Of a DNA stretch of 35,093 nt, positions 4,097 to 24,430 are shown one piece after another. The position numbers and the translations under genes were made by a program. The notes beneath the pieces were generated by a model. It did not search any database, was not told the origin of the DNA, and saw only the letters and a program-made list of their open reading frames with translations. Origin of the DNA: Planctomycetota bacterium (GTDB taxonomy: Bacteria; Planctomycetota; Planctomycetia; Pirellulales; UBA1268); NCBI GenBank assembly GCA_018970605.1, contig JAGWWA010000017.1:1-35093 (forward strand), in the 5' to 3' direction. Numbering within the stretch: position 1 is the stretch's first letter; each line of letters starts with the position of its first letter.

Positions 4097-6883
4097 ATGG
4101 CCACGTCGACCAAGAAGTCCGCCGCCAAGAAGTCTGCCAAGAAGTCGGGAGCCAGCGGTGGCAAGGCGGGCAAGATGACCTACTACTTCGGGGCCAAGAA
4201 GTGTGACGGCGATGGCACCATGAAGGCCCTGCTCGGCGGCAAGGGCGCCAACCTCGCGCAGATGACGAAGATCGGGCTGCCCGTTCCTCCCGGTTTCACG
4301 ATCACGACCCAGGTCTGCATCGACTACTACAAGCACGGCAAGAAGTTCCCCAAGGGCCTCGAGGATGAGGTCGCCGCCGCCATGCGGCTCATGGAGAAGG
4401 AGACGGGGAAGAAGTTCGGCGACATGAAGAACGCGCTGCTCGTCAGCGTTCGTTCCGGCGCCCGCGACAGCATGCCGGGCATGATGGACACGATCCTCAA
4501 CCTCGGCCTCAACGACGAGACGGTGAAGGGCCTCGCCGAGGCCACCGGCAATCCCCGCTTTGCCTACGACTCCTACCGTCGCTTCATCCAGATGTATGGC
4601 GACGTCGTGATGGGCGTGCAGAAGCGGCACGAGAACGAGCACGACCCCTTTGAGGAGGCGATGGAGGGGCTGAAGCACCAGCTCGGCATCCACGACGACA
4701 CCGACCTCACCGAGTCGCACCTCCGGGAGCTGATCAGCCGCTACCTGCGGCTCATCAAGGATCGGACCGGCAAGGGCTTTCCGCAGGATCCGTTCGACCA
4801 GCTGATGGGTGCCGTGGGCGCCGTGTTCGGCAGTTGGATGAACGAGCGGGCGATCATCTACCGCCGCAAGTACAAGATCCCCGACGAGTGGGGCACCGCC
4901 GTCAACGTGCAGAGCATGGTGTTCGGCAACATGGGCGACGACTGCGCCACGGGCGTGGCCTTCACCCGCGACCCGGCCACCGGCGAGGACGTCTTCTACG
5001 GCGAGTATCTCGTCAACGCCCAGGGCGAGGACGTGGTGGCCGGCGTGCGGACGCCGAAGCCCGTCGCCGAGATGAAGCACGAGGCGATGTTCGCCGGCAC
5101 CTACAAGGAACTGGAGAAGGTCCGGCAGACGCTCGAGAAGAAGTTCGGCGACGTCCAGGACTTCGAGTTCACCGTCGAGAAGAAGAAGCTCTACATGCTG
5201 CAGACGCGGCACGGCAAGCGGACGGCGCTGGCCTACGTAAAGATCGCCCACGACATGGTGAAGCAGAAGCTCATGACGGCCGAGCACGCCATCCAGTCGG
5301 CCGACCCCGACGCCCTTTCGCAGCTGCTCGCCCCGATCTTCGACCGCCACGACTACGAGGCGGCCAAGAAGGGCGGCCGACTGCTCACGACGGGCCTGCC
5401 CGCCGGCCCGGGGGCGGCCACCGGCCAGCTCGTGTTCACGGCGGCCAAGGCCGAGGAGCTGGCCCACAAGGGCGAGAAGGTCGTGCTCGCCCGCGTCGAG
5501 ACGAGCCCCGAAGACCTCCGCGGCATGATCGCCGCCGAGGGCATCCTCACCAGTCGCGGCGGCGTGTCGAGCCATGCGGCTCTCGTGGCCCGGCAGATGG
5601 GCAAGGTCTGCGTGGCCGGTGCCGGTGCGATCCAGATCGACTATGCCGCGGGCACGCTGAAGTGCGCCGGCAAGACGCTCAAGGAGGGCGACGCGATCTC
5701 GATCAACGGCTCGACGGGTGAGGTGTTCGCCGGCGGGATCAAGACCGCCGACAGCGAGCTGAAGCAGGTGCTGATCGCCAAGACCATGAAGCCCGCCGAC
5801 TCGGAGGTCTTCCAGTACTACGACTTCATCATGAAGCTCGCCGACAAGCATCGGAAGCTCGGGATCCGCACGAATGCCGACACCCCGGAGCAGGTTCGGC
5901 ACGCGATCGCGTTTGGCGCCGAGGGTATCGGCCTGACCCGGACCGAGCACATGTTCTTCGAGGGTGACCGCATCGACGCGATGCGGGAGATGATCCTCGC
6001 CGAGTCCGAGGAGGCCCGCCGGGCCGCCCTCGGCAAACTCCTGCCCTACCAGCGGGACGACTTCGAGGGCATCTTCAAGGCGCTCGACGGCCGTCCGGCC
6101 ACGATCCGCTTCCTCGACCCCCCGCTGCACGAGTTCGTGCCGCACGACGAGAAGGCCCAGGCCGACCTGGCCAAGAAACTCAAGCTCCCGCTCGAGACCG
6201 TGAAGGCCCGCGTCGCGGCGCTGCACGAGTTCAACCCGATGCTTGGCCACCGCGGCTGCCGCCTCGGCATCAGCTATCCGGAAATCTCCGAGATGCAGGC
6301 CCGGGCCGTGTTCGAGGCCGCTGCCAAGGTGCAGAAGGCCGGCATCAAGGTGAAGCCGGAGATCATGATTCCGCTCGTCGGCTTCAAGAAGGAGCTCGAC
6401 AACCAGGTGGAGATCGTCCACGCCGTCGCCGAAAAGGTGCAGGCGGAGACGGGCCAGAAGATCAAGTATCTCGTCGGCACGATGATCGAGATCCCGCGCG
6501 GCGCGCTGACGGCTGACGAGATCGCCGAGACGGCCGAGTTCTTCTCGTTCGGCACCAACGATCTCACGCAGACGTGCCTCGGCATGAGCCGCGACGACAT
6601 GGGCTCGTTCCTCGGAAAGTACACCGACGAGGGTATTTTCAAGGCCAACCCGTTCGCGTCGATCGACGCTTCCGGTGTGGGTCAGTTGATGAAGATCGCC
6701 GTCGAGAAGGGGCAGAAGACCCGCAAGGACATCAAGCTCGGCATCTGCGGCGAGCATGGTGGCGATCCCCACTCGGTGTTGTTCTGTCACCACATCGGGC
6801 TCGACTACGTGAGCTGCTCGCCGTTCCGCCTGCCGGTGGCACGTCTGGCGGCGGCCCAGGCGGCCCTCGGGAAGACGTACTGA
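4097..6883 (+). CDS. ppdK: Pyruvate, phosphate dikinase
   Basis: Cytosolic enzyme interconverting pyruvate, ATP and phosphate with phosphoenolpyruvate, AMP and pyrophosphate, linking glycolysis and gluconeogenesis. The 928 aa chain shows the ATP-grasp nucleotide domain ([30 protein letters not shown]), the swivelling phosphohistidine domain ([17 protein letters not shown], His493) and the PEP/pyruvate barrel ([34 protein letters not shown] with catalytic Cys884). The enzyme is usually about 870-890 aa; the excess is mostly a 26-residue Lys/Ala/Ser-rich N-terminal tail ([13 protein letters not shown]) before the conserved [12 protein letters not shown] start. The purine-rich AAAGGGA lies about 11 nt before the ATG. 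It is a single-gene unit with its own promoter and a downstream hairpin. Confidence 0.97.
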
Positions 6884-18306: not shown

Positions 18307-20346
18307 ATGGGAACCGCGACCGCAGCATCTGCCAGATCGCCGATCCTGTGGCTGGCTGTGGTCGGCGTGGTGTGGATCGGCTCGAGTGGGGTACGCGGCG
18401 ACGACCTGCACGCCGTCGCCGACCGGGTGCTCGGATGCACCGTGAGTGTGACGTGCGGGATCGACGGCGGCTCGTTCGCCGGGTCGGGTTTCGTGGTGTC
18501 GCCGGACGGCCATGTCGTCACCGCCGCCAGCGTCGTGCCCGTCGGGGCGACCGACGTCACCGTGCTTCTGCCTGGCTATCGGCGGCGGCCCGCCTCGGTC
18601 GTCGCCGTTGACGAGTCGCTCTCCGTGACGCTGCTGAAGGTGGCGGTCGAGGAGCCGTTGCCGGTCCTGCCACTCACCCGTCTCTGGCCGGCGGTCGGCG
18701 ACGTGGCCTTCACCGCCGGCGACGTGGACGACGTGATGCTCGCCAACGGTCGGGCGTCGTTCAGCCGCGGCGTGGTCAGCGGACTGTATGACGTCGAGAG
18801 GCAGCCCGAGGTGGCCTATGCGGGCCGCGTGATCGAGACCTCCGCGGCGGTGAATCCGGGGTCCGACGGCGGGCCGCTCGTCGATGCGGCGGGCCGCGTC
18901 ATCGGCGTGATCAGCGTCGCGGTGTCGCCGCGGCGGTGGCAGGGAGTGGCCGTGCCCATGGCGACGCTCCTTGAGAAGTTCGCGCCGCTGACGAAAGGCG
19001 ACGTGACGATTTCCGTCGATTCTTCCGATCCGCCGCCGAGCCAGCCGCCGCTTGTCGGCCTGAGGCAGGCCGCGGCGGCGGTCGCTCCGTTTCTCGTGGC
19101 GATCGATGTGGAGCGGACCTGGCCGGCCGAATCGCTGCCGCGGGAATCGTGGGAACAGCATCGCCGTCGCATCACCGGCTGGGAGAAGCTGCCGCTGCCG
19201 GAGAGACGCAAGCGGTTTGCCGCCTTCGCAGCCCGGGCCCGCACGCTCGACGTCAACCAGCTCCTTCGCCGGCCGCCGGGCCCCGCTACGGGGCTCGTCG
19301 TGTCGGCCGACGGGTTCGTGCTCACGAGTTCGTTCAACGTGGGCGACGACACGGCGTTCGTCGCCACGACCACCGGCCAGCCGCGGCGATTCGCTGCCGA
19401 CGAGCCCGGCGAGAAGCTTGTGGCCGATCCCGAGGGAGGATTGGTGCAGAAGCCCAACTCCATCCGTCGTGTCAGCGTGGTGCTTCCCGACGGCAGCCGC
19501 CGTGAGGCGAAGGTGCACGCTCGTCACGAACCGCTGGGGGTGGCGCTCTTGAAGGTCGACGAAACCTCGCTGCCCTGGTTCGATCTCGCCGCCGTGGCCA
19601 CGTCGCCGCAGCTCGGCGATCACGTGGCCGCGATCGGGCTCGTGGCGTCAGCAGCGGGCGACGTGACGCTCAACCCGGGCATCGTCAGTGCCGCGTCGCG
19701 AAGCCGTGGCTACCGTTTCCAGACCGACGCCCTGCTCAACTACGGCAACTCGGGCGGGCCCGTCGTGGATGCGGCCGGCAGTCTCCTTGGCATCGCCACC
19801 GCGCCGATCGAGCCCGACACCGTCATGGGAAAGGTGTTCACGCTCTCGCAGTTGATGCGGTGGAGCCGGGCGCCGAACTCGGGCGTGGGTCTCGTCGCCC
19901 GCGCCGACAGGATTCGCGCCGTGCTCGACGATCTCAAGGGGGGGCGATCGTTCGAGCGGGTTCCGGGGCCGTTTCTCGGCATCCGGCCCGACGAGTCGCG
20001 GGCACTCGGCGACGACGTCGTGATCGGCTTCGTGGCCGAGGAATCGCCCGCGGCAAAGGCGGGCCTCAAGAAGGGAGACGTGATCGTCGCCTATGGCGGC
20101 GTCGAACTGGCGGCCTGGCGGGAGCTGACCGAGCGGATCGCGTCCGGCAAGCCGGGCGAGTCGGTCGTGCTCACGATCCGCCGCAAGCAGAAGGGGCCGC
20201 GGATGGTGATCGCCGGCCGTGACGTCGAGACGCTCGAGGACCTCGAGCGGTTGAAGACGTCGCTCGAGCCGGGGGAGACGTACGAGGCCCGGCTGGTTTC
20301 CGACGGGCTCCGCGAGGTGACGGTCGTGCTCGGGGAGAACAAATGA
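18307..20346 (+). CDS. Tandem HtrA-like pseudoprotease with PDZ domain
   Basis: A 679 aa exported protein (signal-like segment 10-30, cleaved near VRG) with two trypsin-like S1C domains and a PDZ domain. Domain 1 (about 35-225) keeps the HtrA framework (GSGFVVSPDGHVVTAASVV, NPGSDGGPLVDAAGRVIGV). The catalytic His, Asp and Ser positions are occupied by Ser75, Ser106 and Asp187. Domain 2 (about 255-520) has Phe343 and Gly411 in place of His and Asp but keeps the nucleophile in NYGNSGGPV (Ser482). A PDZ domain follows at about 545-640 (FVAEESPAAKAGLKKGDVIVAYGG). Neither domain has a complete triad, so it is probably a substrate-binding or regulatory partner of the HtrA protease whose ATG overlaps its stop codon. 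The start at 18307 fits the signal peptide. Confidence 0.85.
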   Translation: MGTATAASARSPILWLAVVGVVWIGSSGVRGDDLHAVADRVLGCTVSVTCGIDGGSFAGSGFVVSPDGHVVTAASVVPVGATDVTVLLPGYRRRPASVVAVDESLSVTLLKVAVEEPLPVLPLTRLWPAVGDVAFTAGDVDDVMLANGRASFSRGVVSGLYDVERQPEVAYAGRVIETSAAVNPGSDGGPLVDAAGRVIGVISVAVSPRRWQGVAVPMATLLEKFAPLTKGDVTISVDSSDPPPSQPPLVGLRQAAAAVAPFLVAIDVERTWPAESLPRESWEQHRRRITGWEKLPLPERRKRFAAFAARARTLDVNQLLRRPPGPATGLVVSADGFVLTSSFNVGDDTAFVATTTGQPRRFAADEPGEKLVADPEGGLVQKPNSIRRVSVVLPDGSRREAKVHARHEPLGVALLKVDETSLPWFDLAAVATSPQLGDHVAAIGLVASAAGDVTLNPGIVSAASRSRGYRFQTDALLNYGNSGGPVVDAAGSLLGIATAPIEPDTVMGKVFTLSQLMRWSRAPNSGVGLVARADRIRAVLDDLKGGRSFERVPGPFLGIRPDESRALGDDVVIGFVAEESPAAKAGLKKGDVIVAYGGVELAAWRELTERIASGKPGESVVLTIRRKQKGPRMVIAGRDVETLEDLERLKTSLEPGETYEARLVSDGLREVTVVLGENK

Positions 20347-21590
20347 GGCGTCCTGCCGGTTTGATCATCGCGACCGCGATCCTCGCGTGCTCCGTGATGG
20401 GTGCCGCCGCGACCTCCGTCCGCGCCGAGGTCGATCTCGCGTCGCTCTGCGTGGCGATTCGCCCTGCCTACGTCTTCATCGCCGGCGGCAGCGGCGTGGT
20501 GATCCGGCCCGACGGCCTCATGCTCACCAACGACCACGTGCTCGAGGACCGCCGCGAGTTCGACGTCCGTCTCGGCGACGGCCGCTCGTTCAAGGCGCGG
20601 CTCCTCGGCCGCGACGAGGTGGGCGACCTGGCGGTGCTCAAGATCGACGTCCCGGAGGGGGAGACGCTTCCGCATCTCCCGCTCGGCGACTCCACGGCGG
20701 TCCGCGTCGGTGACGAGGTGGTCGCCGTGGGCAATCCGTTCGCGCTCGGCGTGATCGACCAGTCGCCGACGTTCACGCTCGGCGTCGTGTCGGCCGTACA
20801 CCACACGCAGGGCAACTACACCGAGTGCATTGTCACCGACGCCGAGCTCAACCCCGGCAACTCGGGTGGCCCACTGGTCACGATGGCCGGCGAGGTGGTG
20901 GGCATCAACGGGCAGATCAGCACCCGCTACGGCCTGCGGAGCAACACCGGCCTTGGGTTCGCGATCTCGTCGCGGCAGGTGGCCCTCTGGCTGCCGCTGC
21001 TGGAGAAGGCCGAGGGGGGCGAGGTGAAGCACGCCAGGCTGTCCGGCGTCGAGTTCGCGAGCCGCGATCGCGAGACGCCCGCCAGCGTGGTCGTGAAGGA
21101 CGTGGCCGAGGGCTCGCCGGCGGCGGTGGCTGGATTCCAGTCCGGTGATGCGATCGTCTCCCTGGATGCCGCGGCCGTCGCGAACGGTCACCGGCTTGCG
21201 GGCCTGCTCGGCGTCTATCCGGAGGGGCACGAGGCGAAAGTCGTCGTCCGTCGCGGCACCGACGAGCAGACGCTCAGCGTGATGCTCACGCCGCTGGAGC
21301 GGTGCCGCACGGGCATCGATCTGGAGCGACCTCGCGGCGGTGAACTGCGGCCGGTCGTGGAGTCGGTGAAGCCAGGGTCGCCCGCGGAGGCGGCGGGGCT
21401 GAAGCCAGGCGATGTGATCGTGGCCTTTGCGGGGCGGCGGCTCGAGTTTTCCACCAAGGAGGAGCGGAAGGCGTTCGACCGCCTGCTGCGGACGAGCATC
21501 AACGTGGGCGACATCGTGAGCCTGGCCGTGCGCCGCTCCGACGGCTCCGGCGGCACGGCCGAAGTCGCCCTACGCCTCGTCGCCCGTTGA
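20343..21590 (+). CDS. HtrA/DegP-family serine protease
   Basis: A periplasmic serine protease and chaperone-type protein of 415 aa, with a signal peptide (1-28). The intact catalytic triad is His65 (TNDHVL), Asp95 (GDLAVLKID) and Ser174 (NPGNSGGPL). Two PDZ domains follow: about 240-320 (VKDVAEGSPAAVAGFQSGDAIVSLD) and 330-410 (VESVKPGSPAEAAGLKPGDVIVAFAG). Members degrade or refold damaged envelope proteins and are activated through their PDZ domains. The ATG at 20343 overlaps the upstream stop in an ATGA, with GGGAGA upstream, so its synthesis is coupled to that of the pseudoprotease. Its 3' end overlaps the convergent DUF72 gene by 21 bp. Confidence 0.93.
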   Translation: MRRPAGLIIATAILACSVMGAAATSVRAEVDLASLCVAIRPAYVFIAGGSGVVIRPDGLMLTNDHVLEDRREFDVRLGDGRSFKARLLGRDEVGDLAVLKIDVPEGETLPHLPLGDSTAVRVGDEVVAVGNPFALGVIDQSPTFTLGVVSAVHHTQGNYTECIVTDAELNPGNSGGPLVTMAGEVVGINGQISTRYGLRSNTGLGFAISSRQVALWLPLLEKAEGGEVKHARLSGVEFASRDRETPASVVVKDVAEGSPAAVAGFQSGDAIVSLDAAAVANGHRLAGLLGVYPEGHEAKVVVRRGTDEQTLSVMLTPLERCRTGIDLERPRGGELRPVVESVKPGSPAEAAGLKPGDVIVAFAGRRLEFSTKEERKAFDRLLRTSINVGDIVSLAVRRSDGSGGTAEVALRLVAR

Positions 21591-24175: not shown

Positions 24176-24370
24176 TATACGCGTCACACTTGATCCTGAG
24201 GCGTTCCTGCGGCGGTGTCACTCCGCCAGGAAGCCCCGAGCGGGAGCGAGGGGATCGTGCGTGGCGGCGGCGAGCGACGCGTGCCGATCCGCGGAGCCGT
24301 TCCCGTCGCTTCCGCTCCGGGCTTTGAGGGTTCAGTGGAAAACGCGCGCGGATCAAGTGTGCCGCGTATA
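24176..24370. mobile_element. 195 bp nested inverted-repeat element with repeat copy B
   Basis: TATACGCGTCACACTTGATCC (24176-24196, outer bases included) and its reverse complement at 24350-24370 match at 20 of 21 positions. They bound a 195 bp segment with no coding capacity. Inside lies hairpin-repeat copy B: AAGCCCCGAGCGGGAGCGAG onward (24231-24255) and a decayed partner (24299-24325, CGCTCCGGGCTT). The segment occupies most of the 365 bp gene-free stretch 24084-24448 between convergent tdk and acetyltransferase genes. It looks like a non-autonomous element that carries or was invaded by the hairpin. No target duplication was confirmed. Confidence 0.6.
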
Positions 24371-24409
24371 CCATGCCGTCGCCTGCGCGAGCGACAGCGA
24401 TCGCAGGCG

Positions 24410-24430
24410 GCACAGGTTGAAATCCTGTGC
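24410..24430. repeat. Short CACAGG-type inverted repeat
   Basis: GCACAGG (24410-24416) and CCTGTGC (24424-24430) flank TTGAAAT. Just upstream, CGCCTGCG and CGCAGGCG (24380-24387 and 24402-24409) form a second stem. Short palindromes of the type CACAGG-N7-CCTGTG are, from memory, widely scattered in planctomycete genomes, but this was not checked. They lie just before the stop of the minus-strand acetyltransferase gene and could serve as its terminator. Confidence 0.4.

Follow-up and report, generated by a model that had tools for sequence, protein, structure and literature searches.

Two overlapping genes were analyzed in the window, by which is meant the whole 35,093-nucleotide stretch of DNA under study (contig JAGWWA010000017.1 of a Planctomycetota bacterium, from a Pirellulales metagenome assembly of the freshwater type). 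The upstream gene, P1 (18307..20346, +), encodes a double pseudoprotease of 679 residues, and the downstream gene, P2 (20343..21590, +), encodes an intact HtrA of 415 residues. Both reading frames are open, and both products begin with a signal peptide. The stop codon of P1 and the start codon of P2 share the 4-nt motif ATGA (20343..20346, +), with GGGGAG located just upstream. All features described below for this locus lie on the same (+) strand.

The signal peptide of P1 is followed by two HtrA-like domains, termed d1 and d2, a PDZ domain, and a short tail. Domain d1 occupies residues 34–232 (18406..19002), of which residues 59–201 were matched by Trypsin_2 of Pfam. Domain d2 (residues 249–545; 19051..19941) was delimited using Pfam, alignment, and fold comparison, and it features a helical insert at residues ~271–326 (19117–19284). 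The PDZ domain spans residues 553–630 (19963..20196; PDZ_2, 1.9e-13), and the remaining residues, 631–679 (20197..20343), appear from their sequence and predicted secondary structure to form a half-PDZ-like tail. In P2, the catalytic domain (20427..21017) precedes PDZ1 (residues 235–314; 21045..21284; PDZ_2) and PDZ2 (residues ~338–410; 21354..21572; PDZ_6 at 338–373). Overall, Trypsin_2 was found twice in P1 (7e-42, two stretches) along with PDZ, and once in P2 (1.3e-31) along with two PDZ domains. The HtrA/Deg domain order (a Trypsin_2-type domain, then PDZ) was thus present in both proteins well above the Pfam cut-offs, and their relatives of solved structure are DegP, DegQ, and HtrA.

The positions of the catalytic triad were mapped in all three protease-like domains. 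In d1, they are occupied by S75 (18529–18531), S106 (18622–18624), and D187 (18865–18867); in d2, by F343 (19333–19335), G411 (19537–19539), and S482 (19750–19752). Because the His-Asp-Ser triad is lacking in both d1 and d2, P1 is considered a pseudoprotease homologue and not a protease. P2 has H65 (20535–20537), D95 (20625–20627), and S174 (20862–20864). The first-pass annotation, which was made from the sequence alone, had read the triad positions of d1 and P2, the lone Ser482 of d2, the two PDZ domains of P2, and the 4-nt overlap in the same way, and all of these assignments were reproduced by the mapping and by Pfam.

An AlphaFold2 model of P1 (17 sequences) had a pLDDT of 83.6 and a pTM of 0.74, and the pLDDT was ~90 over most of the length of each dead domain. 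Residues 23–231 of the model were aligned to HtrA1 (3tjo) with a Z of 21.7, and residues 245–678 were aligned to HhoA (5t69) with a Z of 21.8; DegQ and HtrA were also matched (Z 21–22). Both dead domains are accordingly modelled with an HtrA fold (Z about 21).

The triad losses of P1 are common to 16 of 16 orthologues (14 complete and 2 cut by contig ends), and the same losses occur in two diverged paralogous pairs, for a total of 18 copies; they can therefore be attributed neither to chance nor to local mutation. Across the P1 copies, the nucleophile position of d1 is Asp (once Glu), not Ser, and in d2 the His and Asp positions are always taken by Phe and Gly, respectively. The H-D-S residues of P2 are invariant (18/18 copies). 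Of the 18 copies, 14 have a P1/P2 overlap of exactly 4 nt, and the reading frames are intact in every complete copy of P1. Both genes were found in 15 of the 22 genomes of the genus and neither in the other 7, where the best match to P2 falls to the level of an ordinary HtrA. The family includes one further genus with orthologues of P1 and P2 (G030). Outside the lineage, a single contig scan returned matches that were just 28–31% identical. The extra, diverged pairs, which are 38–46% identical, are carried by G015 and G030 (L040, 1977–5062, and L041, 1841–4941), and in these the P2 protein is without the second PDZ domain. A homologue of P1 that is 82% identical is found in a public record (L057; CAMBSN010000052.1).

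Rates of substitution were compared among close pairs. The dN/dS values were 0.14–0.21 for d1 and 0.12–0.24 for d2 (0.12–0.24 for the dead domains overall), compared to 0.07–0.14 for the catalytic domain of P2 and 0.18–0.38 for its PDZ part. The values for the dead domains are thus at or under those of the PDZ domains of the partner, and it was concluded from them that the dead domains are maintained by purifying selection.

Profile searches were extended to the phylum (294 genomes) and the class (249 genomes), and 90 loci were read, which fall into two layouts. Type I (40 loci), to which the window belongs, features dead d1, dead d2, and an active member, with d1 and d2 either fused or separate. 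Type II (50 loci) features active A, dead B, and dead C, and A and B are sometimes fused (L042, L099, L106, and L107). A natural fusion of all three domains was not seen in the module. PDZ is present in every member. In 81 of the 90 Planctomycetota loci (33/40 of type I and 48/50 of type II), a single H-D-S domain is accompanied by exactly two dead ones, although the loci were found using profiles of dead members, such that the deadness of those members was partly selected. That selection does not explain the third member, which is always present, single, and intact. The nine exceptions were either cut by a contig end (L024, L077, L083, L085, and L140) or had partner genes elsewhere in the genome (L071–L073 and L129); no locus among the 90 contained two active or three dead domains. 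The pair in the window, with its single H-D-S domain and its dead domains in the slots B/d1 and C/d2, belongs to this module. The pair described in the first-pass annotation is thus one example of a phylum-wide module that was not visible from the window.

The genome of the window carries both layouts. Its type II operon, A-B-C, is located on another contig (L039, G000:C97; 1101–5835, −) and has ATGA overlaps; A is an active HtrA, and the triad positions read S-E-P in B and F-G-Y in C. A model of B had a pLDDT of 79.7. Beyond the module, five complete HtrA genes from this genome were aligned in the tree described below; all five have H-D-S, as does one further single-domain match. A dispersed intergenic repeat with a 37-nt core, AGCCCCGAGCGGGAGCGAGGGGATCRTGCGTGGCGGC, is common to the window (24190–24420, +) and the contig bearing the type II cluster (L039, ~6050–6220, −). 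The copy in the window folds strongly (−134.7 kcal/mol, z −5.4), and the repeat is possibly a REP-like element or a structured RNA. In the class, the type II C proteins (L045, 5445–7484; L039, 1101–3122) have a C-terminal region of ~200 residues after two PDZ regions; in the L045 protein, this region has a weak match to Abhydrolase_1 (1.6e-5), just under the cut-off. In other classes, C proteins are shorter and are possibly without it. Another cluster of one active and two dead domains (L149, G105:C205; SEI, ADV, HDS) was observed in a genome in which the end of a contig also bears a type I protein.

The ancestry of the domains was examined in a maximum-likelihood tree of 107 domains from which the triad columns had been removed (~190 columns, few outgroups). 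Domains d2 and C formed one clade (support 99/93). B and d1 were each a clean group, and d1 plus B was unresolved as a clade; a single clade of the two was not rejected by the AU test, its lnL being 2.5 higher than that of the free tree. In a second tree, to which DegP, DegQ, and DegS of E. coli were added, d2 and C again formed a clade (98/86), and all domains of the module, active and dead, formed a single clade (96/93) that excluded the other HtrAs of the genome and the E. coli Degs. Given the d2/C clade and the module-wide clade, the two layouts most likely derive from one ancestral three-part set that was re-ordered; the evidence from these alignments is moderate.

The members are also retained together where they are not linked. 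In the class survey (249 genomes), A was found in 197 genomes and B in 194, and a comparison of the lists placed all B genomes within the A set. Twelve genomes were checked for C, which was present in 3/3 of the A-only genomes and absent in 9/9 of those tested without A and B; in G052, all three are absent. In G146, G164, and G458, A, B, and C reside at three distant loci, each as a single strong match. Similarly, G153, G091, and G214 have a P1-like protein without a protease neighbor and a P2-like H-D-S protein elsewhere, with matches (E 1e-99 to 1e-111) well above their own other HtrAs. Retention of A/B/C and of P1/P2 despite the loss of linkage is as expected for parts of one machine; it would also fit two or three interacting proteins that are separately trimeric. 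Homologues with a full triad in any dead domain and orthologues lacking the protease partner were both sought. No homologue was found to have regained the triad, and the genomes of the genus have both proteins (15/22) or neither (7/22), while those with an unlinked P1 still hold the P2-like protease. The proposal of the first-pass annotation that P1 is a dedicated, non-catalytic partner of active P2 is thus well supported.

HtrA proteases are treated as homotrimers in which three identical subunits both sense and cut, and in homotrimeric members such as DegS and DegP, the active site of a subunit is set by loops of the adjacent subunit. The working unit of HtrA enzymes is a trimer of protease domains (PMC4877387). 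Activity has been shown for mixed HTRA1 trimers that include a catalytically dead subunit (PMC11252331), and Deg7 trimerizes via its degenerate domain (PMC4754418). In the module, three domains per set, one of them active, are kept together, and the fusions join single domains; these features argue for a heteromeric trimer. By a small measure, we favor the reading that P1 and P2 form the two chains of a single envelope HtrA whose trimeric core combines one catalytic domain with two domains that are obligatorily dead. P1 would supply two of the protease domains (d1 and d2) and P2 the third, so that the two chains in a 1:1 complex would amount to a pseudo-trimer with only one active site. In such a complex, the dead domains would preserve the fold as well as the contacts between subunits, would bear extra PDZ modules and loops that may sense substrates or signals, and might set or restrain the conformation of the sole active site; dead subunits could then serve as dedicated sensors or clamps. 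The broader form of this reading, which we hold with belief and doubt in equal parts, is that Planctomycetota evolved an obligate heterotrimeric HtrA in which two permanently dead subunits accompany a catalytic one at a fixed 1:1:1 ratio, that it exists in two ancient versions (three genes, or dead subunits fused), and that sensing is split from cutting. The natural d1-d2 and A-B fusions are consistent with equimolar parts.

Contacts between the putative subunits were considered using residues R274, D174/E177, and F278 at the trimer contacts of HTRA1, placed by a provisional alignment of the HTRA1 numbering. On this mapping, the contact residues show no clear conservation in the dead domains. 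At the column equivalent to F278 (again by the provisional numbering), Trp predominates in both A and C of type II and Arg predominates in B, a pattern that is suggestive of contacts specific to each slot.

Four other explanations were weighed. The most durable of these, which we nevertheless regard as unlikely, is that P2 is an ordinary homotrimeric HtrA and that P1, as a regulator or adaptor in its own right, activates or restrains this enzyme from outside the protease trimer. MamO provides a precedent: it is related to HtrA but dead, and it activates MamE by non-catalytic means, with physical interaction undetected (PMC4794232). The co-retention and coupling of P1 and P2 fit a regulator too. 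However, such an arrangement leaves unexplained the constant ratio of two dead domains per active domain in two layouts, as well as the full HtrA fold under purifying selection in each dead domain.

A decidedly improbable alternative is that P1 serves as a chaperone or decoy that binds substrates: its dead clefts and PDZ domains would capture unfolded or tagged envelope proteins and pass them to P2. The presence of PDZ in every member is in keeping with such a role, and HtrAs with mutated triads, DegP for instance, can still bind substrate. The clefts of the dead domains, however, look filled: a conserved acidic residue (d1) or Tyr (C, 47 of 47) is found at the nucleophile position, and Phe occupies the His position.

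The suggestion that the dead domains own a new catalytic or metal-binding activity, centered on Ser482 in d2 or on the conserved Asp in d1, is given very little credence. Ser482 is invariant within the lineage of the window, the nucleophile position of d1 is invariantly acidic across type I (D 35, E 3), and MamO was repurposed for metal binding (PMC4794232). Across the type I loci, however, the equivalent of Ser482 is S in 20, A in 7, L in 6, V in 4, M in 1, and T in 1, and most of the serines come from the window's own lineage, such that distant d2 domains often have another residue. The partner His and Asp of Ser482 are replaced by Phe and Gly. No new triad was seen to be conserved in the dead domains. 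The first-pass annotation had left the lone Ser482 open to another activity; this idea did not find support, and a functional role for the residue was rejected as a general property. Finally, although the triad losses by themselves are compatible with P1 being a decaying duplicate carried as baggage in the operon, this explanation was rejected in light of dN/dS values far below 1, intact frames in the complete copies, phylum-wide retention, and persistence when unlinked.

If the trimer of two dead domains and one active domain is correct, sensing, scaffolding, and catalysis within an HtrA trimer would become separately testable, which is hard to achieve in homotrimers. Planctomycetota, with their unusual envelope biology, would gain a conserved envelope protease system, one that existing annotation most likely lists as two or three ordinary proteases. 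To our knowledge, bacterial pseudoproteases are few, and the module would constitute a broadly conserved set of them. A search of the openly accessible literature located no description of an HtrA module with one active and two dead members.

Comparisons were made to known systems. The canonical HtrA, DegP, DegQ, and DegS proteins (MEROPS S1C) match P2 in fold, domain order, and triad, but they are homotrimers of active subunits without dead partners. Against the Do family (TIGR02037, DegP/DegQ; cut-off 416.2), P2 scored 250.7 bits and P1 176.1 bits, both below the threshold. In plants, Deg5 and Deg8 (PMC4877387) are HtrA proteases assembled from different gene products, as is proposed for P1 and P2; their complex, however, is built of homotrimers, and both proteins have the catalytic triad. 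In mixed HTRA1 trimers (PMC11252331), a dead subunit (S328A background) assembles with other HTRA1 and the mixed trimer cuts, but these were engineered in the laboratory, whereas dedicated dead subunits would have evolved here. Plant Deg7 (PMC4754418, PMC3473262) resembles P1 in its tandem HtrA domains and in having a degenerate domain under functional constraint. However, Deg7 is a homotrimer that combines active and dead domains in one chain (PD-PDZ-PDZ-PDia-PDZ-PDZ), with one dead domain per active domain; P1 holds two degenerate domains, the active domain is encoded by a separate gene, and the pair was thus not assigned to the Deg7 type. The MamE/MamO pair of magnetotactic Alphaproteobacteria (PMC4794232) is, as here, an active HtrA paired with a degenerate relative, and the dead partner is required non-catalytically for proteolysis by MamE. 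Unlike P1, MamO carries a single protease-like domain, to which a TauE transporter domain is fused; it has no second dead domain and is specific to magnetosomes. In P1, Pfam gave just Trypsin and PDZ families, with no C-terminal TauE domain. Against the NCBIfam models of MamO and MamE (cut-off 800), the respective scores were 72.0 and 90.9 for P1 and 55.6 and 137.2 for P2, placing neither protein in these families. MamE/MamO and plant Deg7 are the nearest known systems, and each is distinct from the P1/P2 module.
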